A stretch of 64,000 bases of DNA. It comes from Streptococcus suis YS56 (GTDB lineage Bacteria; Bacillota; Bacilli; Lactobacillales; Streptococcaceae). The notes beneath the pieces are model-generated. The model was not told where the DNA came from, ran no database searches, and saw only the letters and a list, made by a program, of their open reading frames with translations. Location of the stretch: NCBI RefSeq assembly GCF_000440115.1, contig NZ_ALMY01000029.1, positions 25,338-89,337 on the forward strand, written 5' to 3'. How positions within the stretch are numbered: the stretch's first letter is position 1; every line of letters begins with the position of its first letter. Below, piece after piece: positions 8,583 to 45,101 of this stretch. The position numbers were made by a program, and so were the translations under genes.

Positions 8583-8942
8583 TTGAAGAAAAGCTATCGT
8601 GTCAAGCGTGAACGAGATTTTAATGACATTTTTACAAAAGGGAAAAATGTAGCCAATCGGAAGTTTGTTGTCTATCGATTGCCGAGAGAGCAGCATCACT
8701 TCCGGGTAGGTCTTTCTGTCAGTAAAAAATTGGGAAATGCTGTGATGCGAAATCGAATTAAACGAAGAATTCGCCATGTCTTACTTGAATGTCGCTCGGA
8801 CTTGGTTGCGGATGACTTCGTTATTATTGCTCGTAAAGGTGTAGAAGAGTTGTCCTATCAAGAAATCAAGCAAAACCTAATCCATGTTTTAAAACTAGCA
8901 AAACTCTACCAGGAAGGTGTTGTGATTGAAAAAGAAAATTAA
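8583..8942 (+). CDS. rnpA: Ribonuclease P protein component
   Basis: A 119-residue basic protein, the protein subunit of RNase P, which with the M1-type RNA trims tRNA 5' leaders. It shows the RNR motif region [15 protein letters not shown] (residues about 50-66), plus [11 protein letters not shown] at the N-terminus and FVIIARKG in the core. The start is TTG at 8583, supported by GGAG at 8572-8575. Its last 17 bp overlap the start of yidC, the conserved streptococcal order. Confidence 0.95.
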
Positions 8943-9738
8943 GTGGGCAGGTTTGCTCATTGCTTCTCTGTTTATTTTGACTGCTTGTGGTACCGGACCA
9001 GTAACCAGTCAATCAACAGAAGCTTGGGACCGATTGATTTATTGGTTTGCCAGCGTTATTCAATTTTTATCAATTAATGGTCAGATTGGAATCGGAATTA
9101 TTCTCTTTACGATTTTAATTCGAACCCTTCTGTTGCCCTTGTTCCAAATACAGATGAATTCCTCACGGAAGATGCAGGAGCTTCAACCTCAGCTGAAAAA
9201 GTTGCAAGCGGAGTATCCAGGAACGGATATGGAAAGTCGCCAGCAGCTCTATGAAGCAACGCAAGCTCTCTACAAAGAGAATGGCGTCAGCATGAGAGCG
9301 TCCATGATTCCGCTCTTTATTCAAATGCCAATCCTTTTGGCCCTCTTTCAAGCTCTGACACGTGTTGAAGCCTTGAAAGTAGGTCACTTCCTTTGGTTAA
9401 ATTTTGGGGAGCCGGATCCGTTCTTCATTTTGCCGATTCTGGCTGCAGTGTTTACATTCCTTAGCTCATGGTTGACCAATAAATCAGCAATTGAGAAGAA
9501 TATGGCTATGACAATTATGACCTATGTCATGCCTGTGATGATCTTTTTCTTTGCTGTGGCAGCTGCTAGTGGGGTGGCTTTGTATTGGACAGTGTCAAAT
9601 GCCTATCAGGTTGCTCAAACCTTGGTGTTCAATAATCCGTTTAAAATAATAGCAGAGCGTCAAGCGAAAATTGATGCGGAAAAAGAACGTCAGGCAAAAA
9701 TTCGACGGGCACAGAAAAAAGCACAGAAAAAGAAATAG
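8926..9738 (+). CDS. yidC: YidC/Oxa1-type membrane protein insertase (lipoprotein)
   Basis: A 270-residue membrane insertase that works alone or with SecYEG and SRP to place proteins in the membrane. The N-terminus is a lipoprotein signal with lipobox LTAC (Cys about residue 21). It then has about five hydrophobic segments and the conserved cytoplasmic region ([30 protein letters not shown]) with a buried Arg ([10 protein letters not shown]). The C-terminal tail is very basic ([11 protein letters not shown]), as in Oxa1-like homologues that touch the ribosome. The start is TTG at 8926 with AGGAAGG upstream. Streptococci usually have two paralogues; this one sits next to rnpA. Confidence 0.94.
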
Positions 9739-9758
9739 GAAAACTAGGAGAGAGAAAG

Positions 9759-10754
9759 ATGAAATTTACAGGAGATACAGTTGAAGAAGCGATTCAAAAT
9801 GGCTTGAATGAATTGAATATTCCTCGAAAGAAAGCTCACATTACAGTCATTGCAAGAGAGAAGAGAGGCTTCCTAGGTTTTGGTAAAAAACCTGCGACTG
9901 TTGATATCGATGTTATCAATGAAACAACCGTTGTAAAAGCTAATCAAAAGGCCGTTCGTGGCGTTCCAAGTGAGATCAATGAGCTCAATGAACCAGTAAA
10001 AAGTGTTTCAGAAGCTACGATTGATTTAGGTAAAGTTGTTGCGGCAGTGAAGGAATTTGAAAAATCTGGTCAAACGCTTGATGATGAAATTAAGGCTCAG
10101 ATTTTGAAAAATGAAAAAGAAGCGACAACGATTTTGGAAGAAACAGGTCGGATTGAAATTCTTTCCGATGAATTATTAGCTAGTGTAGCACCTGATCCAG
10201 TTGTACAAGAAGTAGGTTCAGAACCGGCTACTGAAGCAGTTGCCAAGGACGAATTTACAGACCTGGATATCAAAATTGAGCAACAATATGATATTGAAAC
10301 AGTTGTTGCAGAAGTAACAGCTTATGTCCAAGAAATTTTAGATGATATGGATGTTGAAGCCAGCATTGAAACGAGCCATAACCGCCGTACAATCAATATC
10401 CAAGTGGATACCAATGAACCAGGACGTGTCATCGGCTATCATGGTAAGGTCTTAAAAGCCTTGCAACTATTGGCTCAGAACTTCCTATACAACCGTTATG
10501 AGCGCAATTTCTACATCACTATCAATGTGAATGACTATGTAGAACACCGTGCAGAAGTGCTTCAAGGCTATGCACAAAAGTTGGCGGAGCGTGTCTTGGC
10601 TGAGCAAGAAGCCTACCATACAGACCCTATGTCAAGCAGTGAGCGTAAAATCATCCACCGTATCATTTCAAAAATGGACGGTCTGACAAGCTATTCAGAA
10701 GGTAGCGAACCAAACCGCTATGTCGTAGTGGATATTGAAGGAAATCGTGATTAA
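9759..10754 (+). CDS. khpB: KhpB/Jag RNA-binding protein
   Basis: A 331-residue protein with a Jag-N domain (residues 1-50, FTGDTVEEAIQNGLNELN then RGFLGFGKKPA), a long acidic low-complexity linker (about 60-180), a KH domain (IETSHNRRTINIQV, EPGRVIGYHGKVLKALQ, near 205-260) and an R3H domain (ERKIIHRIISKMDGLTSYSEG, 290-320). With KhpA it binds many RNAs and in pneumococcus affects cell division and elongation. It follows yidC by 20 bp in the conserved rnpA-yidC-jag operon. Confidence 0.95.
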   Translation: MKFTGDTVEEAIQNGLNELNIPRKKAHITVIAREKRGFLGFGKKPATVDIDVINETTVVKANQKAVRGVPSEINELNEPVKSVSEATIDLGKVVAAVKEFEKSGQTLDDEIKAQILKNEKEATTILEETGRIEILSDELLASVAPDPVVQEVGSEPATEAVAKDEFTDLDIKIEQQYDIETVVAEVTAYVQEILDDMDVEASIETSHNRRTINIQVDTNEPGRVIGYHGKVLKALQLLAQNFLYNRYERNFYITINVNDYVEHRAEVLQGYAQKLAERVLAEQEAYHTDPMSSSERKIIHRIISKMDGLTSYSEGSEPNRYVVVDIEGNRD

Positions 10755-11366: not shown

Positions 11367-14300
11367 ATGAAAAGAAAAAAGAAATACAAGTATGCCTATA
11401 AACGTCAGCGAAAATTGATGTTGTTGATGGGGGCTGCGACGATGGCTGTAGGTACGGTGACGATGGGGCAGGTCTTGTCTGTCCACGCAGAAGAGACTGG
11501 TCCAGAACCTATTGTTACCGAACTTAAGGATAGCTCTGTAGTGACCGAAGCACCAACTGTAGGTGAAGAAGGACAAACAGGTTCTGACCAGACCGAACCT
11601 CCAACTCCTGTAGAAGTTGCACCACAGACGGAAGTCGAGGCAGGTCTTTCTGAACTAGAGGGAGAGCAAGCTGGGGTGCCAACAGAGAGAAGTGTGCCAG
11701 AGGAAAGAACACTGATCATAGAAACTTCCGAACAAGCTGCTCCAATCATAGCGGATATTGCTGTGAATGCAGAGGATGAGCAGGAGTACAGGAAGGCGAA
11801 CGTCGGTCTGGAAATTACTTTCGAGCAAGTTGAGCAACCAGCAGTCGTTACTCATAAGCTAATCAATAAAGATAGTGGAGAGGCCTATGTTGAAACAGCA
11901 ACGATTGAGAAGCGTCCACATTATCGGTCTAATGGTGATTTTATTGGTACTGAAATTGATACAAGCATCCCAGAAACTACCCAAATAGCCTATGCTTATT
12001 TTAGAGAAGTACCTGCTGGAACCTATCGCCTGGAAATCGGTTTGACAGATTTGGAAAGCAAACCCTACGAATTGGCTGCGGCTAGTCTTGAGAAAATAAA
12101 CAATCTGTCAGATATTGTGATTAAACCTTATGCTGAAACGAATACGCAATTTGTAGAGCCAAATCTAGTAGAGGTTAAGGTTGATAAGACGACCGTGAAA
12201 AAAGGGGAAAATGTTGTTTATACCCTGATTTATGACAGCCTGCCGGAAGTTTCTTATGGGGTTATGCTACAAGACTTTTCTTATGGCTTTTTTGGTGCCG
12301 AGTATGATAAGTCGGGTAAAAAGACAGGACGTTCCATACTTCATATTGCAGAGAAGTTTTCTGAGGCTGGAGAGAAGAAGCTGGCATTTGATACCAGTTA
12401 TGGTTATTTCTCTACAAAAGATTGGAAGAAACAGGTAGAAATTAGTGAAGCCAATAGGAATAAGTTGGCCCAACTGATGCCGACAGTGACAGTCCTAGAT
12501 GAAGACTATAAGTACATTGAAATAACTTCCCTAACCCATATTGGTACCGACGGTAGCCGAAGTGAACTGGCTGCTCTTGACCCATCCTGGAGCCACTCCA
12601 TCAACGCTCTTCCCGATGATTCGGGGCGCTTTTATCACAATAGGGTCTTGCACAAGCTCCAAGTGGGAGATCAGTTGGTCTATAAGGTGAAAATAAGTCC
12701 CGAGTACTTGGCAGAGCTGAAAAAGAAAAAGAGTGAGCAGAGTTATACAGAAACGGTTTCTTTGGAATTCGATAGGGTGTTCAATGTACAAGCTTTAGGT
12801 GGTACTGCCTTTGAATTTGATGAAAGAGATAGTTTGTATCTCAGTACAGACCAGTGGGAAACAGGTGAGGTAGATTTGACCTTTACGGTCAAAGATTATA
12901 TGCATGGTTACCTGAACCTAAATCGTCTGGCTTCTGGAGCCTTTAATGAGTATTTCTTAGCTTTTGGAGGTTATTTATTCCAGATTGAGAATCCAGCCTA
13001 TAGCCTGCCAAATTTATTGGAGCTAAAAAAATCCGACAAGATTTATGTTGGTGAAAATGGTGCTATAAAAGTAAAAACTTCAAATTCTAGTCTAATCTCG
13101 TCTGGAACAACTCAGTTGGACTTTGATATTCGACCAACTTTGGGAGATTTTGGAAATTCATTTGACTACCATTTATCTGTGGAACAGGACTATTCCGATT
13201 CATCAAATCCTGTTGTGACAGGTTGGCTTACAGGTTCTCTGTTTGATTCTGTGACAGAAAACCATATTGGTAGCTATTCTTTAAAACGTGCGGAAATTTA
13301 TTTTGATGGCTGGAAAGAAGAGATTACCGATCTTCCAAATTGGACCTTGGAGATCAGTGGAGATAAGGTCTTCAAATCCAATTTCCTTCTATCAGGAGAG
13401 GAACGGACACAGATTGGTTCGATTGGGCGTAGTTGGGTATATGGATCATTAGGGCGGTTGCCAAAAGAGTTGCAAAACCGTCGTTTAGGTGTAAATAAAA
13501 TTCAATTCTATGACCGTCAAGGAAATAATCTACCGACAGTAAATGCTGATTGGGTCTTATCAGAATATGAATTGAGAGAGGGAGATCGTCTTTATTACTA
13601 CTTGCCTTCTACGGGAGAATTGACAGAATTAAAACCAGTCTTAGAAGATGGTCGTCGATTAGTGAAGGGAAGTAAGGACAGTAAGGGTCTCTATGTATTT
13701 GCGATGGCGCTAGAAGAAGATGGGGTTCAACCTACGGAGAATGCGGTTGGTACAACTAAGGTTCTATCTGGTCAAATTGAAGATGTTTATGTAAGCTTTT
13801 CAGAGGCAGATGTTAGTGCAGTAAGTAGTCTTCAAGTCGTTAAGGTAGAGGATGCTACTATTTTGGAAAAATTGCCTGATAGTTTCAAGCGTGAAGATGT
13901 GGATATGTTTGACATTAAGACACTTGATAAAGATGGTCAATTTGTCCAAATCCAGTCCAGTAAAGGTGCCTTTGTTACCCTACCTGTTTCACCAAATCGT
14001 AAGGTGACCAAGGTGATTTACTACTTACCACAAACAGGTGCAGTAGAAGAGTTGGAATACGAGTGGGATAAAACTTTCAATCTGGTATCTTTCAAAGTAA
14101 GCCATTTCTCTAACTATGCTATTGTCTATGAAGGAAATGATGAAAAGCCTCAACCAAGTGGCACAACTTCAGGAACAGGCAATAACACTAGTCCAGAAAC
14201 TGGTGAAGGTAGCACAAGTGCCGGTGATACGGCTTCAGTTTCTGGTAATAACACTAGCCCAGTTGGCTCAGTTGATAGCGTCTTAGTTGGTAGCCTAGGT

Positions 14301-14519
14301 AATGGTGGGCAATTGGATGCAAATAGGAGAGAGGAAGCGTCTGCTCAACCAACTAATGCTACAGTTGAACAAACCAACCATGTTGATTCAAAAGTTACAA
14401 GAGCCAGAAAGGTGAATGCTTTGCCAAATACAGCTGCACAGACAGGCGTAGTAGCGACTGTGTTGGGATTGGCTTTGGCAACACTGGCGTCATTTGTACA
14501 GAAAAAAAGAGAAGAGTAA
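11367..14519 (+). CDS. Large cell-wall-anchored surface protein, LPNTA-type sorting signal
   Basis: A 1050-residue secreted protein. The N-terminus is a basic stretch, a hydrophobic segment and a VHAEE cleavage site near residue 42. Residues about 43-140 are acidic and Pro/Thr-rich. The body is beta-rich, with no family I can name. Two related segments, each with YYLPxTGxxxEL (about 749-765 and 890-905), the second followed by VSHFSNYAIVYE, resemble domains common in streptococcal surface proteins. A spacer with two NNTSP copies precedes a C-terminal sorting signal: ALPNTAAQTG, a hydrophobic helix and a KKREE tail. The motif is LPNTA, not LPNTG. RBS AGGGAG. Expression may depend on the G tract in its promoter. 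Confidence 0.85.
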   Translation: MKRKKKYKYAYKRQRKLMLLMGAATMAVGTVTMGQVLSVHAEETGPEPIVTELKDSSVVTEAPTVGEEGQTGSDQTEPPTPVEVAPQTEVEAGLSELEGEQAGVPTERSVPEERTLIIETSEQAAPIIADIAVNAEDEQEYRKANVGLEITFEQVEQPAVVTHKLINKDSGEAYVETATIEKRPHYRSNGDFIGTEIDTSIPETTQIAYAYFREVPAGTYRLEIGLTDLESKPYELAAASLEKINNLSDIVIKPYAETNTQFVEPNLVEVKVDKTTVKKGENVVYTLIYDSLPEVSYGVMLQDFSYGFFGAEYDKSGKKTGRSILHIAEKFSEAGEKKLAFDTSYGYFSTKDWKKQVEISEANRNKLAQLMPTVTVLDEDYKYIEITSLTHIGTDGSRSELAALDPSWSHSINALPDDSGRFYHNRVLHKLQVGDQLVYKVKISPEYLAELKKKKSEQSYTETVSLEFDRVFNVQALGGTAFEFDERDSLYLSTDQWETGEVDLTFTVKDYMHGYLNLNRLASGAFNEYFLAFGGYLFQIENPAYSLPNLLELKKSDKIYVGENGAIKVKTSNSSLISSGTTQLDFDIRPTLGDFGNSFDYHLSVEQDYSDSSNPVVTGWLTGSLFDSVTENHIGSYSLKRAEIYFDGWKEEITDLPNWTLEISGDKVFKSNFLLSGEERTQIGSIGRSWVYGSLGRLPKELQNRRLGVNKIQFYDRQGNNLPTVNADWVLSEYELREGDRLYYYLPSTGELTELKPVLEDGRRLVKGSKDSKGLYVFAMALEEDGVQPTENAVGTTKVLSGQIEDVYVSFSEADVSAVSSLQVVKVEDATILEKLPDSFKREDVDMFDIKTLDKDGQFVQIQSSKGAFVTLPVSPNRKVTKVIYYLPQTGAVEELEYEWDKTFNLVSFKVSHFSNYAIVYEGNDEKPQPSGTTSGTGNNTSPETGEGSTSAGDTASVSGNNTSPVGSVDSVLVGSLGNGGQLDANRREEASAQPTNATVEQTNHVDSKVTRARKVNALPNTAAQTGVVATVLGLALATLASFVQKKREE

Positions 14520-14584
14520 GTGCTTGAGATGCTTACAAGAGACTTAGATTTAATTTGGGGATTAAAAAATAATTATGAAGTAGC

Positions 14585-14613
14585 TTGACAAAACCCCAGA
14601 ATTTATATAAAAT
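14585..14613 (+). promoter_or_regulatory. rpmH promoter
   Basis: TTGACA (14585-14590), 17-bp spacer, TAAAAT (14608-14613); a strong housekeeping promoter 75 bp before rpmH. Confidence 0.8.
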
Positions 14614-14687
14614 AGTTTGGTATGTTTAGTAACTGATCAAAACTAGCCGGCTAAACGAGTACAAGAATCTAAGAGGAGGTATTCATC

Positions 14688-14825
14688 GTGAAACGTACTT
14701 TTCAACCAAGTAAAATCCGTCGCGCACGCAAACACGGTTTCCGTAGCCGTATGGCAACTAAAAACGGCCGTCGCGTGTTAGCAGCTCGTCGCCGTAAGGG
14801 ACGTAAAGTTCTTACAGTAGCATAA
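14688..14825 (+). CDS. rpmH: 50S ribosomal protein L34
   Basis: A 45-residue, highly basic ribosomal protein. The sequence starts [17 protein letters not shown] and ends GRKVLTVA, with the conserved [15 protein letters not shown] core. The start is GTG at 14688 with a strong AGGAGG site 8 bp upstream. Monocistronic, with its own promoter and a strong terminator. Confidence 0.97.
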
Positions 14826-36847: not shown

Positions 36848-36855
36848 TATGAATG

Positions 36856-36877
36856 CCTCTCTAATGAGAGGTTTTTT
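36856..36877 (+). terminator. purR terminator
   Basis: CCTCTC-TAAT-GAGAGG followed by six T. Confidence 0.85.
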
Positions 36878-36940: not shown

Positions 36941-37810
36941 ATGAGAGTTTTACTAGCAACAAGATTAAAAAATAGAAGAAGAGAGTTGGGTTGGTCACAG
37001 AAGGAGTTGGCAGAAGGGGTCTGCGATCAAGGGCAGATTAGCCGCATCGAGAAGGGAACCTATATGCCTGGTGCAGACTTGCTTCATGCCCTTGCTAAAA
37101 AACTCCAAGTCAGAATGGACTATTTTTTTGACGAAGAGGAAAGCGAAATTGTCTCTGACCTGAAACACTTTAGAAAACTTGCCAAAAACTGCCTTATCCA
37201 AAGAGATTATGAGACCTTAGGTTTTCTATATGAAAGGGAAAAGGGCACCCTATCTCATCTGACCTTTCCAGACCAAGTTTATTTGGAATGGGTGGAGACT
37301 GTTTTAGCAGAGAATTTGGAAGCTAGGCGAGAATACGCTATTCAGAAATTGAGGGAGCTACTGGAACGAGTCGGGGAGAATAGGAGAGGCTATCTCTATC
37401 TATACAATAGTTTATTGATTCTATTGATTCGAGATGAGAAGAATGCTGAGGCAGAGCAATTCTATAATGAGGTAATTGAAAAGATTGATAAAAATAAGTT
37501 GGATTTATTGGTAGATATAGATGCTTACTTCAGTATCCAGTCCAACTATATCCGTTATCTATGGTTAACAAATCAGCTAGATAAGGGAATTGAGCTGGTT
37601 ACAGCCTGCATTGAGGAATTCAAGTCAACCTACCCTATTCATTTCTTGGCAGATTTTTATTGTGACTTAGGAAATGTGACAGAAGACTTTGCGGATAAGA
37701 AACTGGTCAAAGAACGCTATGAACGCTCACGCCTTCTTTATCAGTTAGCAGGTATTGATGGTATTGCTCTGAAAATAGAAAAATACCTCAAAGAAACCGA
37801 TGCAGATTGA
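36941..37810 (+). CDS. XRE-TPR regulator of PlcR/TprA (RRNPP) type
   Basis: A 289-residue regulator. The N-terminal HTH (residues 5-60) reads RLKNRRRELGWSQKELAEGV, then CDQGQISRIEKGTYMPGADL, and YFFDEEESE closes the domain, a pattern typical of PlcR, TprA and related RRNPP proteins. Residues about 75-285 are helical repeats of TPR type, the peptide-sensing part of the family. A 40-codon secreted-peptide ORF lies 131 bp downstream, followed by a peptide export operon. I infer a peptide-sensing switch that controls that operon. Its own terminator separates it from the operon. Confidence 0.85.
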   Translation: MRVLLATRLKNRRRELGWSQKELAEGVCDQGQISRIEKGTYMPGADLLHALAKKLQVRMDYFFDEEESEIVSDLKHFRKLAKNCLIQRDYETLGFLYEREKGTLSHLTFPDQVYLEWVETVLAENLEARREYAIQKLRELLERVGENRRGYLYLYNSLLILLIRDEKNAEAEQFYNEVIEKIDKNKLDLLVDIDAYFSIQSNYIRYLWLTNQLDKGIELVTACIEEFKSTYPIHFLADFYCDLGNVTEDFADKKLVKERYERSRLLYQLAGIDGIALKIEKYLKETDAD

Positions 37811-37838
37811 GCTTGCTCCAAGGGAGCAGGCTTTTTTT
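37811..37838 (+). terminator. Terminator of the XRE-TPR regulator
   Basis: GCTTGCTCC-AAG-GGAGCAGGC followed by seven T. Confidence 0.88.
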
Positions 37839-37889
37839 ACACCAAAAATATAACAATAATAAAATAAATTAAAAAAATATTAAAAAACA

Positions 37890-37920
37890 TTGACAACAAG
37901 TAACGAAACAGTTATACTGT
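37890..37920 (+). promoter_or_regulatory. Promoter of the peptide-export operon with palindrome over the -10
   Basis: TTGACA (37890-37895), 17-bp spacer and TATACT (37913-37918), a near-consensus promoter. ACAGT-TAT-ACTGT (37908-37920) is a perfect 5-3-5 palindrome covering the -10, a natural place for a repressor of XRE type to bind. Confidence 0.75.
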
Positions 37921-37941
37921 AGAAAAGAAAGGGGTTACAAA

Positions 37942-38064
37942 ATGAAAAGAATAGTTAAGAGTGTTTTGGTGGTGGGTTTACTAGCGGTTATTTTAATTAG
38001 AGTTCCACAATTGCCGAGAGTTTTTGGTGTAGATAGAGAAGACATATATATCTATACAAAATAG
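37942..38064 (+). CDS. 40-residue putative secreted signalling peptide
   Basis: A 40-codon ORF with RBS AAAGGGG and ATG at 37942. The peptide starts KRIVKSVLVVGLLAVILI (basic N-end then hydrophobic core), continues RVPQLPRVF and ends GVDREDIYIYTK. Basic start, membrane-crossing core and a short polar C-end is the layout of Phr/PapR/PhrA propeptides, whose C-terminal 5-10 residues are the signal. It is the first gene after a strong promoter and directly follows an RRNPP-type regulator. Alternatives are a leader peptide or a tiny membrane protein. The mature signal is not predictable. Confidence 0.65.
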   Translation: MKRIVKSVLVVGLLAVILIRVPQLPRVFGVDREDIYIYTK

Positions 38065-38080
38065 TTAAGGTGGAGTATAT

Positions 38081-40300
38081 ATGTTTAAAAAATATGCTTG
38101 CACTTTGCAACATGACCAGTCGGATTGTGCAGCAGCTGTTGTCTCTACTGTATTATTGACCTATAAAAAAGAACTTTCAATAATGAAAATTCGGGAAATT
38201 ATTGGAACAGATATGTACGGAACGACAGTTCATGGAATTGTTTCTGGTCTTGAAAAGTTAAATTTTACCGTAAAGGCAGTTCGAGTATCCTTAGATGAAT
38301 TAACTGGAGATATTAGCTTTCCAGCTATACTACAAATACGGAATAGTCTGGGGCAGAATCATTTTATAGTGATTCATAAGATAAAGAAAGATGGTAACTA
38401 TTTGGTAGCTGATCCAGTAAAAGGACTGGATATGCTCTCAATTACAGAACTTGAGGAAGTTTATCAAGGAATAGCCATTTTCATGGTTCCAAATAGCGAG
38501 TTTGAAAAAGGAAACATGAAAGGCAAAGGACTATTTGACTTATTTTCGGCTCTGATATTAACACAGAAAGGACTTGTGGGAACAATCATCTTAGCATCAT
38601 TCTTGCTAAGTGTCGTTGGTATTTTGTCTAGTCTTTTTTCCAAAGTTATTATGGATGAGATTATTCCTTTTGGATTAAAGAACAGTTTATACTTATTCTT
38701 GATTGTTTTTGGCATCGTTTCATTAGTGCAGAGTCTCTTATCTGCTTTTAGGCAACATATTTTGCTATTTCTATCAAGAAAAATTGATATTCCTGTGCTC
38801 CTGGGCTATTATGACCATATTATTCACCTACCTTATAGTTTTTTCGGTAGCAGAAGGGTGGGTGATGTCTTGACACGGTTTCAAGATGCCATGACGATAA
38901 AGAATGTTTTTACATCGGTTTCTATTTCGTTAGTTATGGATATTAGCCTATCACTGATAAGTGCCTTTGTTTTATGGCACCTCAACTCCACTTTATTTCT
39001 AATATTAGTTATGATGGTGATTGCGAATATCGTGTTAATTTATTGCTTCAAGAAACCTTATAAGAAGATTAATAATGAGCAGATGGAAGCAAATTCTATG
39101 CTTAATTCGCAATTGATAGAATCGATTCGTAACATAGATACCATAAAATCACAGCATGATGAGCGACAACGTTTGGATAAACTGGAAGAGAATTTTGTTC
39201 ACACCTTAGAAATTGGCTATAAAGAAGGTGTTTTACAAAATGTTCAATCTACAATTTCTTCTATAGCCGGAACTCTAGGGAATTTGATTTTTATGGGAAT
39301 AGGTGCTTTATTTATTATTGATAACAAGATGACAATTGGTGATCTTCTTGTTTTTCAGACCTTGAGTCAGTATTTTACTGAGCCTGTTCAGAATTTGGTT
39401 GGTCTCCAACTTACTTTTCAGGAAGTTCAGGTTGCTGTTAGCCGACTTCAAGAATTGATGGATGTTGAGCGCGAAGATAGTCAAGTGGGGAATAGTATCC
39501 ATAATTTTTCGCTATTGGAAGATATTGCTTTCAAAAATGTTACCTTTGCATATGGGTCTAGACCCCCTATTATTCGCGATTTTAGTTTGACTATCAACCA
39601 AGGTGAAAAAATCGCTTTTGTAGGTGAAAGCGGAGCAGGAAAGAGTACTCTTGTACGACTTCTTCTTCATTTCATTCAGCCTATTGAAGGTCAAATAAAG
39701 TTTGGTGAGTATGACTTAGGGGATTTAGATTATGGAGAATTACGGAAAAAAATAGCTTATATCCCTCAAACAGTCGAGCTCTTTTCAGGGACTATAATTG
39801 ATAATTTAAAGATAGGAAATCCAGAAGCTAGCTATGAGGATATGATACGTGTATGCCGCATAGTAGGGATTCATGACACAATTCAAAAATTACAAAACCG
39901 ATATGGTTCTTTTGTTGAAGAAGGTGGTCAGAATTTCTCAGGAGGAGAAAAACAACGTCTTGCTATTGCTCGTGCTCTTCTTAGTAAGGCAGATCTTTAT
40001 ATTTTTGATGAAGCGACCTCCAATCTTGATTCCTTTAGTGAACAGATTATCCAAAATTTAATATTTGAAAAAATTATTGGCAAGACGACAGTTGTAGTGG
40101 CCCACAGATTATCAACGATTCTACGTTGTGATAAAATCTGTTTTTTGGAAGACGGGAAAATTGTAGAATATGGGACGCATGATGAGTTGATGAAGTTGAG
40201 AGGTCGCTATGCAACAATGGTTGGCTTACAAAGCATTCAGCTAGATAAGCAAGAAAAAGTAGTTTCTACTAGCTGGGCAGAAGAGGTAGTATATGAGTAA
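38081..40300 (+). CDS. Peptidase-containing ABC transporter (C39 family)
   Basis: A 739-residue transporter of the ComA/BlpA/LagD class that removes double-glycine leaders and exports the peptide. The N-terminal C39 peptidase (residues 1-140) has the Q-x-D-C block LQHDQSDCAAAV with the catalytic Cys near residue 14, NHFIVIHKI with the His near 95, and ADPVKG with the Asp near 112. The membrane domain spans about 155-440. The ATPase domain shows Walker A GESGAGKST (near 514), signature NFSGGEKQRLA and Walker B LYIFDEATSNLD. All motifs are intact. RBS AAGGTGGAG. It overlaps the next ORF by 8 bp. Confidence 0.94.
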   Translation: MFKKYACTLQHDQSDCAAAVVSTVLLTYKKELSIMKIREIIGTDMYGTTVHGIVSGLEKLNFTVKAVRVSLDELTGDISFPAILQIRNSLGQNHFIVIHKIKKDGNYLVADPVKGLDMLSITELEEVYQGIAIFMVPNSEFEKGNMKGKGLFDLFSALILTQKGLVGTIILASFLLSVVGILSSLFSKVIMDEIIPFGLKNSLYLFLIVFGIVSLVQSLLSAFRQHILLFLSRKIDIPVLLGYYDHIIHLPYSFFGSRRVGDVLTRFQDAMTIKNVFTSVSISLVMDISLSLISAFVLWHLNSTLFLILVMMVIANIVLIYCFKKPYKKINNEQMEANSMLNSQLIESIRNIDTIKSQHDERQRLDKLEENFVHTLEIGYKEGVLQNVQSTISSIAGTLGNLIFMGIGALFIIDNKMTIGDLLVFQTLSQYFTEPVQNLVGLQLTFQEVQVAVSRLQELMDVEREDSQVGNSIHNFSLLEDIAFKNVTFAYGSRPPIIRDFSLTINQGEKIAFVGESGAGKSTLVRLLLHFIQPIEGQIKFGEYDLGDLDYGELRKKIAYIPQTVELFSGTIIDNLKIGNPEASYEDMIRVCRIVGIHDTIQKLQNRYGSFVEEGGQNFSGGEKQRLAIARALLSKADLYIFDEATSNLDSFSEQIIQNLIFEKIIGKTTVVVAHRLSTILRCDKICFLEDGKIVEYGTHDELMKLRGRYATMVGLQSIQLDKQEKVVSTSWAEEVVYE

Positions 40301-40760
40301 GTTAGAAGTATTAGAAAATAAGAAATTAGTTTTAAAAAAAGTGATTTGTAAGAAGCTAAGTAGCCTTCAGTTTGAAAACTTGGAGCAAGAAATAGATAAG
40401 TTTTATCAGCACCTACAATTACTGAAAGTACAAATGTTTGGCCCATTGATTGTAAAAAATAGTGGAACTATTCTTCATGAAGATGGGACTATTACCGTAG
40501 ACTATGATTTGTATGTCCAAGCTCATGATTTTCGCCAGTATGATAAGTTTTATACTGTTTATGAAGAAATTGTTTGTCCACATTGTGTCTATGTACGATT
40601 TGAAGATAGTCCAGAGTATTTGCAATATGCATATTCTAAACTAGATTTACATTTCTATGAAAATGAGTTGGAAACAAATGGCACTATTTACACCGTTTAT
40701 GTCAATACAAATAATGAAACCATGACGGTGGATATTTTTAGACCGATTATTAGCTTATGA
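40293..40760 (+). CDS. Hypothetical protein coupled to the C39 transporter (DUF5085/GyrI-like?)
   Basis: A 155-residue soluble protein. The N-terminal ~45 residues are helical and charged; the rest alternates beta and helix, with LIVKNSGTILHEDGTITVDYD, then CPHCVYVRFEDSPEYLQYAY, then GTIYTVYVNTN near the end. The plan (short helix, then a SOUL/GyrI-like effector-binding fold) and position next to a bacteriocin transporter remind me of DUF5085 proteins, but I am not certain. Two cysteines (CPHC) could bind metal. It overlaps the transporter by 8 bp and the HlyD-like gene by 4 bp, so all three are translationally coupled. Confidence 0.7.
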   Translation: MSKLEVLENKKLVLKKVICKKLSSLQFENLEQEIDKFYQHLQLLKVQMFGPLIVKNSGTILHEDGTITVDYDLYVQAHDFRQYDKFYTVYEEIVCPHCVYVRFEDSPEYLQYAYSKLDLHFYENELETNGTIYTVYVNTNNETMTVDIFRPIISL

Positions 40761-42160
40761 AACTATATAACAAATCTGAACTTCGTTATTCTAGAATCTT
40801 TTTCGATAAGCGTCCTCCAGCCTACGCGTTTATCCTAATCTTTAGTACACTAGCTACCTTGATTATAGCTTTTGCAGTATCTGCCTATTTGCCTAAAAAT
40901 TATATAGTCAAAGCTAGAGGGACTTCCGTGATAACAGGAACAGAGTATGTATCTGCTCTGAGCAATGGAAAGATTGTGACGCTTCATAAAAAGGAAGGGG
41001 ATAGTGTAAAAGCTGGTGAGATTATTCTTTCTTTATCTAGTGGACAAGAAGGACTTCAGACTGAATCTTTAACTAAACAATTGGACAAGCTCAAAGCTAA
41101 AGAGAGTCTCTTTCAAAAGTATGAACAGTCTCTGAATGAAAAAGTTAATTATATGGCAAATTCAGGTGAAGAGCAGGAGTATTACGGGAAAGTCGAATAT
41201 TATCTATCTCAACTTAGCTCAGAAAACTATAATGATGGTAGTCAATATGCTAAGTTGCAGGAAGAGTACACTAAGTTGAATAAATTAGTGGCGGAGAAAA
41301 GTCAATTAGAAACGGACTTGTCTAGTTACCAATCACAACTTGCTAATCTAGAGGCAGAATTAGCAACTCTCTCCGTTCAAGAGACAGCAGAAACGACTTT
41401 CGATAGTGAGACCAGTTCATCATCCGCTGACACTTCACCTAATAACATTCAGTTGGAGCAGCTAAATACAAAAATATCAGAAGTCAAAACAAAAATTGAA
41501 ACGACTACTTCTTCTATACAAGGAAAGGGGACGGAAATAGAGTCCCTACAGTCTAGTATTAGGGAGATGGAGCGTTCTTACAACGACCCTACTTCTCAAG
41601 CTTACAACACTTATGCTCAGTTAATCAGTGAGTTAGGTACAGCAAGGGCAGCCAATAATAAAAGTATAACAGAGTTAGAAGCCAACTTAGGGATTTCCAC
41701 AGGTCAGGATAGAGGGCTAACTGTTTCTGCCTCTAGTGATGGAACCTTACATTATGTTACTCCGCTAAAGCAAGGTATGTCTGTCCAACAAAACCAGACT
41801 ATTGCTGAAATTGCTGGTAGTGATAGAGAAGCCTATATAGAAGCTTTTGTTCTTGCGACAGATATTTCCCGTGTTACTGTTGGTGCAGAGGTAGACATAG
41901 CTATCACGGGTGTAAACAGTCAGAAATTTGGTACCTTAAAAGGTGCTGTAACTCAGATCGACTCTGGAACGATTACTCAGGAAACTCAAAATGGTAATGT
42001 TAGTCTTTACAAAGTAGTTGTTGCTCTTGAAGAATTAACTCTACAAAAAGATGAAGAAATTGTAGTTTTACAAAAAGATATGCCAGTGGAGGCTCGTATC
42101 GTTTATGATAAAGAAACCTATTTGGATTGGATTCTAGAATTGTTGAGTTTTAAACAATAA
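40757..42160 (+). CDS. HlyD/BlpB-type bacteriocin secretion accessory protein
   Basis: A 467-residue membrane fusion protein. One membrane helix (residues about 25-47), then a lipoyl-like half (GKIVTLHKKEGDSVKAGEIIL, near 72-92), a long coiled coil (about 100-300, rich in Q, E, S, L), the second lipoyl half (SDGTLHYVTPLKQGMSV, near 325-341) and a beta-barrel C-end. This is the partner that C39 exporters such as ComA-ComB and BlpA-BlpB need. Its start overlaps the upstream ORF (ATGA). Confidence 0.92.
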   Translation: MKLYNKSELRYSRIFFDKRPPAYAFILIFSTLATLIIAFAVSAYLPKNYIVKARGTSVITGTEYVSALSNGKIVTLHKKEGDSVKAGEIILSLSSGQEGLQTESLTKQLDKLKAKESLFQKYEQSLNEKVNYMANSGEEQEYYGKVEYYLSQLSSENYNDGSQYAKLQEEYTKLNKLVAEKSQLETDLSSYQSQLANLEAELATLSVQETAETTFDSETSSSSADTSPNNIQLEQLNTKISEVKTKIETTTSSIQGKGTEIESLQSSIREMERSYNDPTSQAYNTYAQLISELGTARAANNKSITELEANLGISTGQDRGLTVSASSDGTLHYVTPLKQGMSVQQNQTIAEIAGSDREAYIEAFVLATDISRVTVGAEVDIAITGVNSQKFGTLKGAVTQIDSGTITQETQNGNVSLYKVVVALEELTLQKDEEIVVLQKDMPVEARIVYDKETYLDWILELLSFKQ

Positions 42161-42255
42161 TGGTTTTACATCTTTACAGTAGATAAATCCCAACAGTGTG
42201 GATGAAAGGTCCTTCTGCTATCTAGGTAAAGAATGAGAAACGTTGATTATATCCA

Positions 42256-42275
42256 GTTAGAGGATTGTGTCTAAC
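42256..42275 (+). promoter_or_regulatory. Hairpin upstream of the GG-peptide gene
   Basis: GTTAGA-GGATTGTG-TCTAAC, 24 bp before the start codon, in a 139-bp gap. Could stabilise a processed mRNA carrying the peptide gene; no T run, so not a terminator. Confidence 0.4.
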
Positions 42276-42299
42276 CATGATTTTTAAAGGAGAATTTTT

Positions 42300-42611
42300 A
42301 TGGAATTAGTAATGCCGAATAACTATGTAGTTCTTGAAGAAGAAGAAATGATGTATCTTGACGGGGGTGATTGGAATAATTTCAGAAAAAATATTCAGGG
42401 TCTGTGGGCAAGAACTACTGCCTTGAGATTTGCGTTAAGAGAGTCGGGATTGACCAATTATGCTGGTCAAGTAATTGTAGCAAGCTACCCTATTTTAATG
42501 GCTAAAGTTGCCTCAATTTCTACTACAGTTCTTGCGATAACTGGAATAGCTGGGTTGGTAGCAGCTGTTGGATTGGGGGCGGCACTTTACGGCTGGCGTC
42601 TGTTTTATTGA
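42300..42611 (+). CDS. Double-glycine-leader peptide, putative bacteriocin precursor
   Basis: A 103-residue precursor. The leader MELVMPNNYVVLEEEEMMYL ends DGG at residues 21-23, a classical GG leader for the C39 transporter encoded upstream. The predicted mature part is 80 residues, with a polar N-half (DWNNFRKNIQGLWART, ESGLTNYAGQ) and a long hydrophobic C-half (VASISTTVLAITGIAGLVAA, then VGLGAALYGWRLFY) containing Gly/Ala helix-packing patterns. By count it has seven Lys/Arg and two Asp/Glu. There are no Cys residues, so it is not a lantibiotic or pediocin-type peptide. I do not recognise the mature sequence; leader features resemble streptococcal class II peptides. RBS AAAGGAG. Confidence 0.85.
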   Translation: MELVMPNNYVVLEEEEMMYLDGGDWNNFRKNIQGLWARTTALRFALRESGLTNYAGQVIVASYPILMAKVASISTTVLAITGIAGLVAAVGLGAALYGWRLFY

Positions 42612-42631
42612 TGATTGTAAATTAGAAAGTT

Positions 42632-42660
42632 TAGCGAGGGTAGACAAATGTTTAGCCTCG
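42632..42660 (+). terminator. Weak terminator-like hairpin after the GG-peptide gene
   Basis: AGCGAGG ... CCTCGTT stem followed by ATTG; the T run is poor, so partial read-through into the membrane genes is expected. Confidence 0.4.
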
Positions 42661-42705
42661 TTATTGCTCATAATGATATCAAACATTTAGAATGGAATTA
42701 AGAAG

Positions 42706-43650
42706 ATGAAACTATGGCATTATTTCGTGCTATTAGTAGGAGTACTGATACTCTCTCTTGTTTGTATTCCGCCGATTTTTATCGGCAGATATGGGGACGG
42801 TTTGTTATTATTTACCCTAGTGTTTTTTCTAGTTGGTACGCCAATCTTTTTATTTATCAACCAACTCATTTCTACCTTATCTTTTATGCTGGCCTCATTG
42901 TTGACAAATCAGAAGATTATTTATAGCTATTTCTGCAACTATTTATCTTTTAATAATGTACATATCCCTTGTTTCTTGTTCTTACAATTTTTCGGTCTTT
43001 CTCCTGCCATTTATTTAGAAGACAGAGGTTCTACGAAATACAGGAGATATTTTCAAGTTTATACAACCATATTTTTTACTTTTCAGTTCTTCTTATTTAT
43101 TTTAGGTATCCATCTTCTAGATTTTAGGGGAAGTTTACTCCCGTTACTTCCATATTCCCTCCTAACTTTCTTTCACACTGGATTTTTTTTGAAGGAGTAT
43201 CGAAATTTCTATCGGTACAAATCAAGAATTTTGACAGCTTTAGTCAGAAAAGAAGATAAAATTCATCTGAAAGAATTTCGGTATGAAAGCGTTCTTGGTA
43301 ACAAGGACTTGGTTTATCAGTTGCTTTGTTACCTGATTTTGATAAAAAGTAGGTTGAACAGGGAAGAAATTGAAGCGATAGAAAGTTTGGAAAAGTCTTA
43401 TTTTGAAAACATAGAAAATAGTAGGGAACACTATAGTTTCTTAGATACCATCAAGATAAATCTATACATGCAGAGGGAAAATAAGGAAGAATATAGGATT
43501 TATAAAAAGATATTGGATTCGTGGACTGGGGATCGTCCGTATTATTATTTGCTGGTAGATGAAATATATAGGAACATCGAACTTGAGAATAAGTTGGATC
43601 TATCCTTGGCTATTTCGGAGATTCCAATTATCTTGGATGTATTGAAATGA
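42706..43650 (+). CDS. Unknown membrane protein of the peptide locus
   Basis: A 314-residue protein with about five or six membrane segments in the first ~165 residues and a soluble, helix-rich C-terminal half (about 165-314). No HExxH or CaaX-protease (EExxxR) motif is visible, so it is not an Abi-type immunity protease. I do not recognise the family. Position right after the GG peptide makes immunity or peptide handling plausible. It overlaps nothing; RBS AAGAAG. Confidence 0.65.
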   Translation: MKLWHYFVLLVGVLILSLVCIPPIFIGRYGDGLLLFTLVFFLVGTPIFLFINQLISTLSFMLASLLTNQKIIYSYFCNYLSFNNVHIPCFLFLQFFGLSPAIYLEDRGSTKYRRYFQVYTTIFFTFQFFLFILGIHLLDFRGSLLPLLPYSLLTFFHTGFFLKEYRNFYRYKSRILTALVRKEDKIHLKEFRYESVLGNKDLVYQLLCYLILIKSRLNREEIEAIESLEKSYFENIENSREHYSFLDTIKINLYMQRENKEEYRIYKKILDSWTGDRPYYYLLVDEIYRNIELENKLDLSLAISEIPIILDVLK

Positions 43651-43698
43651 GAATTGCTTTTCTATCCAGGCTCTTCCACGTTGTGAGGTAATGAAACG

Positions 43699-43824
43699 GT
43701 GAAAATTGAAAAAATCTTGGTACTTGTCTTTTTTGGCTGTCTACTAATCTCATCCATCACATTTTTAGCTTATGATCATGTTGGCGAAGAGGTAAAACAA
43801 TGGATGATAGGAATAGGGCAGTAA
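43699..43824 (+). CDS. 41-residue single-span membrane peptide
   Basis: A GTG-started small ORF with GAGG upstream. The product has a hydrophobic span (KILVLVFFGCLLISSITFLA) and a short polar tail (YDHVGEEVKQWMIGIGQ). The next gene starts 1 bp after its stop codon, which supports translation. It has no GG leader. It could be an immunity peptide, a regulator of the neighbouring membrane protein, or a second peptide signal. Confidence 0.5.
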   Translation: MKIEKILVLVFFGCLLISSITFLAYDHVGEEVKQWMIGIGQ

Positions 43825-43825
43825 G

Positions 43826-44572
43826 ATGATTCAAAAAATAACTATTCTACAAATTCTGTTGATCGTTCTGATACTTATTTTAGGAGCTTTTTCTACTCTG
43901 CCGTTGGAACTATCAGACTTAGTCTTTGCTGGTCTGACTTTTGTATATATCCTGTCAACAGTACCGATTTATTACACAAAATCGAAACAGCTCCGCCTGT
44001 TGCTGATGGTCAATTCCCTCCTCCTTCTGGGCTTGTGTCTTAGTTTTAGGGAATTGCCTTTCTATCTAAGATTAGGAATCGTGTTTTCAGTCGGTGTATT
44101 GCAGTGCCTGCTTAGTTTCTTCTTAGCTAAGGAATCGTCCAGCGATTTACAAGAAGAATGGAGATATGTTCAGGCTTTTGAATCAAAAATAGATAAAAAT
44201 CGTTCCTTATCAAGCCTGACAAAAATCAGTTATGGGCTTATGCTAGTCAGTCTCTTTGTTCAGAGTTTTGTCCCAACCTTGTTCTTGTTTTTTCTATTGG
44301 TTGTGAAATATCTAGTTGACTGCTACGCAAGGATTAAACTGGTTAAGCTAGTTAGAGGGAGCCTGCTACTTAACTACTTGGTTGGCTTGATTTTTCTGGA
44401 ACAGTTGGTATATATAGGCTTATTTTGTCTGCTATGGACGGGCTCTCATTTGACTCTGTATGTAGGGGTTCTTGTTTTTTCCAATTTCCTGATTCCCTTA
44501 TTAAAACAGAGGGAATACAGGCTAAGTAAGCAACTCATTGCTGGTAAAGGACAAGATTCTCTAGATTCATGA
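43826..44572 (+). CDS. Unknown polytopic membrane protein of the peptide locus
   Basis: A 248-residue protein with about six to eight hydrophobic segments and one charged cytoplasmic loop (residues about 105-130, LAKESSSDLQEEWRYVQAF). No motif of a known immunity, protease or transporter family. Its first codons abut the small ORF upstream, so it belongs to the same transcript. Candidate immunity or accessory protein. Confidence 0.6.
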   Translation: MIQKITILQILLIVLILILGAFSTLPLELSDLVFAGLTFVYILSTVPIYYTKSKQLRLLLMVNSLLLLGLCLSFRELPFYLRLGIVFSVGVLQCLLSFFLAKESSSDLQEEWRYVQAFESKIDKNRSLSSLTKISYGLMLVSLFVQSFVPTLFLFFLLVVKYLVDCYARIKLVKLVRGSLLLNYLVGLIFLEQLVYIGLFCLLWTGSHLTLYVGVLVFSNFLIPLLKQREYRLSKQLIAGKGQDSLDS

Positions 44573-44606
44573 TGCGACAATTTAGACTCTTGTTCTTGGA
44601 GGTGCT

Positions 44607-44774
44607 ATGGCAAAAATAAAATTAAGTAAAAAAATAGGTTACGTGATTCTAGCTCTGATATTACTAGCAGCCTTTATCTACCGACTAGGCTTGTCCGATA
44701 TCGGAAGGCTTGAATTGGTGATTTACGTCGTATTTTTCAACCTTGCCCTTGTGCAAGTATTAAAAAAGAAATAA
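44607..44774 (+). CDS. 55-residue membrane protein
   Basis: A small ORF with a strong GGAGG site. The product has two hydrophobic stretches (IGYVILALILLAAFIYRL and VIYVVFFNLALVQVL) flanked by Lys residues. It lies between larger membrane genes of the locus with short gaps. Small two-span proteins of this size are common bacteriocin immunity proteins, but that is inference. Confidence 0.55.
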   Translation: MAKIKLSKKIGYVILALILLAAFIYRLGLSDIGRLELVIYVVFFNLALVQVLKKK

Positions 44775-44795
44775 GAATAAGTAGGAGGAAAATCC

Positions 44796-45047
44796 ATGCC
44801 ACTTCATTTAAGCCTTGTTACTCTTTCTCTGAATTTGATCCTTATCCACCAGCTCTATCTCCTTTACAAGAAAAAGGAAAAGTTGAATGCTACAGTTGCT
44901 TTTCTGGTCTGCTTACTTGTAACGGTTATGCCTAATGCAGAAGATTTCAATGCGATTATTGGCTTGATTACAGGAACTCTGGTTATCGTTTATTTGGGAA
45001 GTTTTGTCTATTCCAGATTGGCTCCTAAGAGAAGAACTGCTAAATAG
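44796..45047 (+). CDS. Small membrane protein, 83 residues
   Basis: AGGAGG site and ATG at 44796. The product has two or three membrane segments (LSLVTLSLNLILIHQLYLLY; ATVAFLVCLLVTVMP; GLITGTLVIVYLGSFVY) and basic patches (KKKEK, APKRRTAK). Family unknown. It is the last gene of the peptide locus, followed by a bidirectional terminator. Confidence 0.6.
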   Translation: MPLHLSLVTLSLNLILIHQLYLLYKKKEKLNATVAFLVCLLVTVMPNAEDFNAIIGLITGTLVIVYLGSFVYSRLAPKRRTAK

Positions 45048-45062
45048 ATATTACTGACATAT

Positions 45063-45101
45063 AAAAACTCACTATTCCAACTGCTGAAATAGTGAGTTTT
45101 T
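45063..45101. terminator. Bidirectional terminator closing the peptide locus
   Basis: AAAAACTCACTATT ... AATAGTGAGTTTTT, A and T runs on both sides, between convergent genes. Confidence 0.9.

Follow-up and report, generated by a model that had tools for sequence, protein, structure and literature searches.

The rtg locus of Streptococcus pneumoniae, described in 2020 (PMC7018657), comprises the Rgg regulator RtgR, the peptide RtgS, the exporter RtgAB, double-glycine (GG) peptides whose signal sequences are highly conserved, rtgX, and many membrane or hypothetical proteins. In that paper, rtgX is named once, as a 'GyrI-like hypothetical protein', and Table 2 gives it at 21.1%, the sum of intact and disrupted rtgB (18.6 + 2.5); of 318 pneumococcal loci, 59.1% have a disrupted rtgA. 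Neither BlpAB nor RtgAB is efficient at secreting the substrates of the other, and active RtgR/S aided co-colonization, with no bacteriocin proven (PMC7018657). Also in S. pneumoniae, PhrA acts as the heptapeptide LDVGKAD and PhrA2 as VDLGLAD (PMC5436883). Some GG peptides are pheromones (PMC7595303). Here, we analyze a block (positions 36,941 to 45,047) of a 64,000-nucleotide stretch of Streptococcus suis YS56 (contig NZ_ALMY01000029.1, positions 25,338 to 89,337 of the forward strand), hereafter the window, whose numbering we use throughout.

Judged by its genes, the block is an island of about 8 kb with a complete set of peptide-export genes of the rtg type and a differing regulator. It encodes an rtg-type GG exporter beside a PlcR-type regulator and a small peptide open reading frame (ORF), and in its probable function it is predicted to secrete a bacteriocin-like peptide as a likely pheromone accumulates. 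No title or abstract opening that we searched, mostly without subscription papers, described a locus of the rtg type in a species other than S. pneumoniae or one governed by a PlcR-type regulator. The original prediction, drawn from the letters and a list of their ORFs, is partly supported. It had rightly seen a locus for peptide export that carries its own putative signal, and the C39 exporter, GG precursor and RRNPP regulator are indeed present, with its ORFs, motifs, promoter and overlaps all where it had placed them. It missed the rtg type, for which exporter, leader type and cargo class are known. As telling against it, it had named a described bacteriocin with the same gene set; a described locus with a similar set, rtg, does exist, though the rtg peptides are without proven activity. 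Its term 'self-contained' was too strong, given that the exporter and importer of the 40-residue peptide lie outside the block.

Exporter, regulator and candidate signal

The transporter scored 556 bits against TIGR01193 (cut-off, 523.85), matched Peptidase_C39 (E = 3.4e-28), and shows the familiar Cys and His-Asp motifs of C39 peptidases along with the ABC motifs. Its HlyD-type partner fell below the cut-offs of TIGR01000 and TIGR01843. Searched at E ≤ 1e-150, the exporter occurs in 9 of 284 Streptococcus genomes (identity, 79 to 100%), and an intact copy of X, the 155-amino acid protein encoded between the two, was found in the same 9 of 284; each of the nine Streptococcus species has both. 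All three genes stand together in each of the nine Streptococcus loci and in 9 of the 12 other loci with X. The window exporter is 80% identical to that of genome G220 (L066, a canonical rtg locus), which adjoins an RtgR/RtgS pair. There, the last 106 residues of the Rgg-type gene product are 95% identical to the rtgR' fragment of G158, its matches to Rgg_C (E = 1.1e-4) and TIGR01716 (0.012) lie under their cut-offs, and the divergently encoded peptide ends in AIIFPWGWPI, which is RtgS type A in the table of PMC13361665.

X, listed as unknown in the original prediction, has a GyrI-like fold and is identified here as GyrI-like rtgX; a pneumococcal X protein shares 57% identity with it. The window protein does not match the Pfam GyrI-like family PF06445. 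Among 23 relatives, one matches PF06445 (E = 5e-4) and four match DUF5085 (PF16895). Sources name such proteins AraC-type regulators, an identity that we rejected, as the 155-residue model has no DNA-binding part. X is a candidate for the leader-reading subunit that the unusual substrate choice of RtgAB calls for, and its role is the part of the system that best lends itself to experiment. GyrI-like relatives of X also occur beside RRNPP-type regulators in Halolactibacillus and Streptohalobacillus (L028, about 8629 to 10462; L029, about 8758 to 10474), where no exporter was found.

We assign the window regulator to the PlcR type and not to Rgg. Against sequences in the PDB, it matches PlcR (2qfc; E = 1.7e-10) over residues 6 to 263, and no Rgg or ComR chain appears among its matches at E ≤ 1; Pfam lists neither RNPP_C nor Rgg_C. 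A relative in L067 does match RNPP_C (E = 3.8e-5, under cut-off). For the RtgR of G220, the PDB matches are instead the regulator 9lth (1.2e-10), Lmo0325 (1.1e-7), and ComR (1.6e-5 to 2.6e-4), with PlcR absent from all 33. Control of the window locus by Rgg and its SHP peptide was rejected on the same grounds, namely a PDB sequence match to PlcR only and the lack of Rgg_C.

Eight of the nine rtg-type exporters adjoin a relative of the window regulator, the window's being the one of these eight that was compared with solved structures; the remaining one, in G220, adjoins Rgg. These relatives are encoded on the same strand as the exporter at 94 to 100% identity in G000, G252 and G256, at 62% in G180 and at 41 to 43% in G014, G109 and G234, and in divergent orientation at 32% in G222. 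G220 also encodes a relative of the window regulator, some 6 kb away from its exporter. A tree of 42 regulators groups the window's with those of G255, G252, G256 and G180; it places elsewhere the regulator of G222, and likewise those of G109 and G234 together with 13 further ones. With long branches and unsettled bootstrap, the tree is used only for this close group and its distance from the Rgg clade. In five loci (L112 to L116, in G268, G159, G272, G102 and G014), a relative of about 41% identity and an RtgR-type gene lie 1.4 to 9 kb apart, four of these loci having no rtg-type exporter in the stretch, so that two peptide-sensing systems lie side by side.

Between regulator and exporter lies the 40-codon ORF. 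Its product, the 40-mer, has a hydrophobic stretch at residues 4 to 22 and no tryptophan, and matched neither NF040904 nor any peptide family in the profile search. An ORF of the same build occupies the same position in relatives, ending in GVDREEIFIYAK (G252 and G256), GIDTGVYYSSS (G234), GIDTGAYYSPS (G109), IGSDTIRTHIK (G180) or SGVDVGKAD (G222). The last of these ends, GVDVGKAD, resembles the pneumococcal PhrA heptapeptide, and the G222 peptide matches PhrA_Strep at E = 3e-5, below cut-off. Compared with G252 and G256, which are identical here and so provide one comparison, the window ORF has one silent change (codon 12) and three amino acid changes (codons 34, 36 and 39), all three within the last seven codons (34 to 40). 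In the regulator, changes from the same relatives are spread out, with 9 of 16 to 18 in residues 201 to 289. The proposal that the 40-mer is the signal gains support because of these same-position ORFs, the PhrA-like end and the confinement of changes to the last seven codons, and we regard it as a likely pheromone precursor. A 51-residue hydrophobic ORF between a divergent RRNPP-type regulator and an rtg-type exporter in Helcococcus (L022, 5897 to 6052) is likewise a candidate pheromone.

The first 8 bases of the X gene lie within the transporter gene, and its last 4 bases are shared with the start of the HlyD gene; 139 bases separate the HlyD end from the GG precursor, which is followed by genes for proteins of 314, 41, 248, 55 and 83 amino acids. 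Over the window as a whole, neither promoter-like sites (32 against 26.9 expected; SD, 5.2) nor terminator-like sites (8 against 5.3; SD, 2.6) exceed chance. Inspection of relatives by eye shows similar promoter hexamer pairs at the corresponding position. The gene order from regulator to HlyD is kept in G252 and G256 at 92 to 98% identity, and beyond HlyD the block is 74 to 95% identical in G256, with other GG genes there in G252. Because order and identity are conserved in both genomes, the block is more than a chance arrangement. The terminators claimed as its bounds hold on the left, where the scanner reports a hairpin; on the right, an inverted repeat is visible that the scanner does not list.

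Leader, cargo cassettes and insertion site

The leader of the GG precursor, MELVMPNNYVVLEEEEMMYLDGG, carries every residue named for RtgG: P-18, Y-15, L-12, M-7 and L-4, plus the conserved -22 to -18 end. The precursor is the sole match of its type in its own genome at E ≤ 0.01. Across 22 precursors, leader positions M1, E2, L3, V4, P6, Y9, E15, E16, M17, Y19 and G22 are invariant, and the cores share little, falling by single linkage into seven families and six single types. A wide search for the leader gave 382 matches among 7988 scored proteins (E ≤ 0.001) and no added breadth: among the best 120 of the 382, those with names are from S. pneumoniae or Streptococcus, many of them called 'SPH_0224 family bacteriocin-like peptide'.

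The cargo is organized as cassettes, each with a near-invariant leader, an unlike core, a joint at the GG codons and a core-specific partner. When GG genes were compared in pairs within ten loci, DNA homology ended at +62 to +73 in 35 of 35 pairs, the GG codons being +64 to +69. In the same 35 pairs, homology began 10 to 300 bases upstream, at 88 to 100% identity (the count was limited to 300 bases upstream and took in about 300 bases beyond the start codon). The copied stretch ahead of later GG genes includes the 3' end of the HlyD gene in L060, L061, L062 and L063, and an HlyD 3' remnant precedes a GG gene in L070.

Core type and next gene go together. From 38 GG genes or core relatives, 23 had both core and next gene in families, and 15 were left out for want of a gene within 900 bases or of a family for core or neighbor. 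Among the 23, 18 pairs were concordant against a shuffled mean of 9.5, and none of 20,000 shuffles reached as high; the loci are related, and the figure is descriptive. The family of the 314-residue membrane protein follows the window core type in three loci (the window, L060 and L062); in a fourth, L063, an inserted ORF stands between the two. The 248-residue family follows a CxxICAALAMSPGT-type core in four of the five loci holding it, the 41-residue family follows an FSIPRWPV core in L068 (L022 has a relative of 35% identity at the corresponding position), and the 83-residue family follows a WSASVLGNN core in L061, the sole locus with that core. None of these three core types occurs in the window block. 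In L068 (genome G158, beside a pspA-like gene), relatives of the 314-, 248- and 41-residue proteins accompany GG genes with the same leader in a locus without exporter. These arrangements suggest that the 314-residue protein is likely the immunity partner of the window core and that the 41-, 248- and 83-residue proteins are likely immunity genes left from lost cargo cassettes. The downstream proteins, which the original prediction had listed as unknown, resemble core-specific partners, and several of these are orphans. The 41-residue ORF also gave a weak match (E = 0.043) as a PhrA-type peptide, which we rejected; it is a shortened N-terminus of a membrane protein of 60 to 61 residues.

The end of purR was inspected in 21 other genomes, chosen by hand among relatives. 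In seven, purR and the RluD-like gene are adjacent with no island, their stops 28 to 31 bases apart in six and somewhat farther in G253. The exporter is at the site in three (G252, G256 and G180; for G256 and G180, the RluD end is outside the stretch), and five hold other genes (G259, G258, G257, G064 and G263); in four (G261, G264, G265 and G222), the RluD-like gene is not within the stretch. The remaining two carry part of the block, G250 only the 55- and 83-residue genes and G255 the regulator with all five partners. With 7 of 21 relatives empty at this site and the exporter in 9 of 284 genomes, the block is not the broadly conserved core locus that the original prediction had named as its own refutation.

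In G255, a deletion has taken all but the first codons of the 40-codon ORF, together with the exporter, X, HlyD and roughly 62 residues from the start of the GG protein (L111, C28:36000-55500, at 13400 to 14700), such that the promoter and those first codons lead straight into what is left of the GG gene. The regulator, its neighboring promoter and the five partner genes remain in line, a natural partners-only variant that is what a non-producer keeping its immunity would look like. At the same site, L148, L149 and L150 (G259, G258 and G257) hold other gene sets, with repeated related ORFs and proteins starting MKKTLLDASFEESLNLYDD and MKKTVWNASLEES; because of these, the site looks like an insertion hotspot.

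Features of the island between purR and the RluD-like gene (window positions)
Feature	Position	Strand	Evidence
Hairpin-T site, 3' of purR; left edge of the island	36855..36872	+	Scanner; comparison with empty sites
PlcR-type RRNPP regulator (helix-turn-helix plus tetratricopeptide repeats), 289 amino acids	36941..37810	+	HTH_3, E = 3.2e-13; PDB sequence match to PlcR 2qfc
Hairpin-T site between regulator and 40-codon ORF	37809..37833	+	Scanner
Promoter-like site TTGACA-17-TATACT, ahead of the 40-mer	37890..37918	+	11 of 12 matches; retained in G255
40-codon peptide ORF, candidate pheromone precursor, C-terminus DIYIYTK	37942..38064	+	Hydrophobic residues 4 to 22; same-position ORFs in relatives; C-terminal variation
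ABC transporter with C39 peptidase, RtgA type	38081..40300	+	TIGR01193; Peptidase_C39; genome comparison
X, stand-alone GyrI-like fold protein, 155 amino acids, RtgX type	40293..40760	+	
HlyD-type accessory protein, RtgB type	40757..42160	+	HlyD_3, E = 3e-15
GG precursor, 103 amino acids: 23-residue rtg-type leader (42300-42368) and 80-residue core	42300..42611	+	Leader comparison
314-residue membrane protein, likely cognate immunity for the window core	42706..43650	+	Family behind the same core type in relatives
41-residue ORF, shortened copy of the 60- to 61-residue partner of another core type	43699..43824	+	Homolog comparison
248-residue multi-span membrane protein, putative orphan partner of CxxICAALAMSPGT-type core	43826..44572	+	Behind that core in 4 of 5 loci holding it
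55-residue membrane protein	44607..44774	+	Retained in G256, G255 and G250
83-residue membrane protein, putative orphan partner of WSASVLGNN core	44796..45047	+	Behind that core in L061; retained in G255 and G250
Right edge of the island: inverted repeat carrying T and A runs, common to the convergent RluD-like gene	45065..45101	.	Read in the sequence; absent from scanner list

Predicted function and its alternatives

If the island functions as we predict, the 40-mer would leave the cell by a housekeeping route and be cut back to roughly its seven C-terminal residues. The trimmed peptide would then be taken up by an oligopeptide permease and bind the PlcR-type regulator, upon which the promoter at 37890 to 37918 would drive the operon through its last gene. 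The C39 transporter and HlyD protein, with X as a putative dedicated helper, would cleave the leader behind its GG and carry the 80-residue core, which is likely bacteriocin-like, out of the cell. The 314-residue protein would protect against this core, and the 41-, 248- and 83-residue proteins are likely immunity kept from lost cassettes.

Several observations weigh against this prediction. We know of no activity for any rtg-type peptide, and the authors of the rtg study could not determine the function of theirs (PMC7018657). The GG protein matches no Pfam family at E ≤ 1 and in NCBIfam gives only a chance-level hit to SecD (E = 0.033); in these two libraries, its core shows no kinship with a described bacteriocin, and its structure model is uninformative (predicted local distance difference test score, 48.4). 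The window 40-mer does not match PhrA_Strep, and the regulator lacks the RNPP_C match. Relatedness among the loci tempers the core-partner figure, in which 5 of the 23 pairs are discordant, and relatives of the 314-residue protein also stand away from the window core type: in L060 one lies two genes past a different core, and in L068 one precedes a core. In G222, the HlyD gene reads as two ORFs (L063, 10369 to 11766). The link to S. pneumoniae rtg runs through G220 and the pneumococcal X protein rather than through an rtgA sequence, as G158 has no exporter. Finally, the partners in G255 could reflect a young deletion that has not yet decayed.

Alternatively, the exported GG peptides may serve colonization or biofilm formation or act on the host, with the partner membrane proteins as receptors or helpers rather than immunity proteins. 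We consider this unlikely. It agrees with the pneumococcal rtg peptides, which are without known killing, and with the co-colonization effect of active RtgR/S; the 80-residue core is also long by the usual size range of class II bacteriocins. A toxin with immunity is the better fit to the core-specific partners, to partner families found in the window, L062, L072 and L073 in the absence of their cores, and to the G255 deletion. We think it improbable that the island merely stores immunity or is decaying, its exporter and peptide no longer used in this strain: the 41-residue ORF is shortened, G255 and G250 hold only part of the block, and pneumococcal rtgA is often disrupted, but every ORF from the regulator to the GG precursor (40-mer, exporter, X and HlyD included) is open here and the overlaps are kept. 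A locus that produces signals only, in which cells would communicate through the GG core and the 40-mer would be no more than a small membrane peptide, seems to us highly improbable. GG pheromones do exist and the 40-mer belongs to no peptide family; against this, an 80-residue core is followed by a family-matched membrane protein, no histidine kinase was seen by eye among the ORFs of the block, and peptide ORFs are conserved in position beside PlcR-type regulators.

Beyond the predicted peptide-controlled secretion, a wider proposal can be put forward tentatively, as possible though doubtful. The island may be a polymorphic toxin system built on a GG leader, in which the leader and its upstream DNA serve as the joint for swapping cores, orphan partners form an archive of immunity, whole quorum-sensing modules, drawn from different families, replace one another beside a single conserved exporter, and a GyrI-like third subunit of that exporter has been recruited to read positions -22 to -18 of the leader.

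Comparison with described systems

Polymorphic toxin systems have a constant N-terminal part, a variable C-terminal part and a partner gene behind, and they keep orphan partners. The window cassettes resemble their orphan toxin-immunity cassettes. The constant part here differs, being a cleaved leader of 23 residues and the DNA ahead of it, and the toxin activity is putative. Among GyrI-like proteins, the stand-alone CTR107, SbmC and CtaZ and the GyrI-like part of STM3175 are comparable to X; the solved ones bind small molecules or gyrase according to their descriptions, whereas X is tied to a peptide exporter. Of the features of class II bacteriocins, the GG leader and the C39 exporter are both present in the window.

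The pneumococcal blp/BIR loci are under two-component control and have leaders other than the window's. They share with it GG peptides, a C39 exporter, and strain-variable cargo and immunity genes (PMC7595303). The TprA/PhrA and TprA2/PhrA2 systems of S. pneumoniae share a PlcR-type regulator; theirs controls secreted-peptide genes, as is predicted for the window. Their short precursor signals through its last seven residues (PMC5436883), as the 40-mer would. Their regulator and peptide genes point in opposite ways (PMC7595303), whereas those of the window point in the same direction, and they control lanthionine-peptide genes, whereas the window has an rtg-type C39-GG exporter.

The closest relative is the pneumococcal rtg locus, which shares the exporter type, the HlyD partner, GyrI-like rtgX, the GG leader with P-18 and its Y/L/M/L residues, several membrane proteins, and cargo that varies between strains. 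It differs in its divergent Rgg regulator and WxW peptide, in place of which the window has a same-strand PlcR-type regulator and a 40-mer resembling a signal peptide. The pair that marks rtg, RtgR with the WxW pheromone RtgS, was not found at the window locus, where the regulator matches PlcR without Rgg_C and the peptide has no tryptophan. The window locus also lies at another chromosomal site and has one GG gene only. For the rtg peptides described in 2020, the window and its relatives provide directly testable core-partner pairs and a partners-only relative. The same kind of exporter is found under at least two regulator families, and bacteria may thus swap both weapon and trigger around one exporter.

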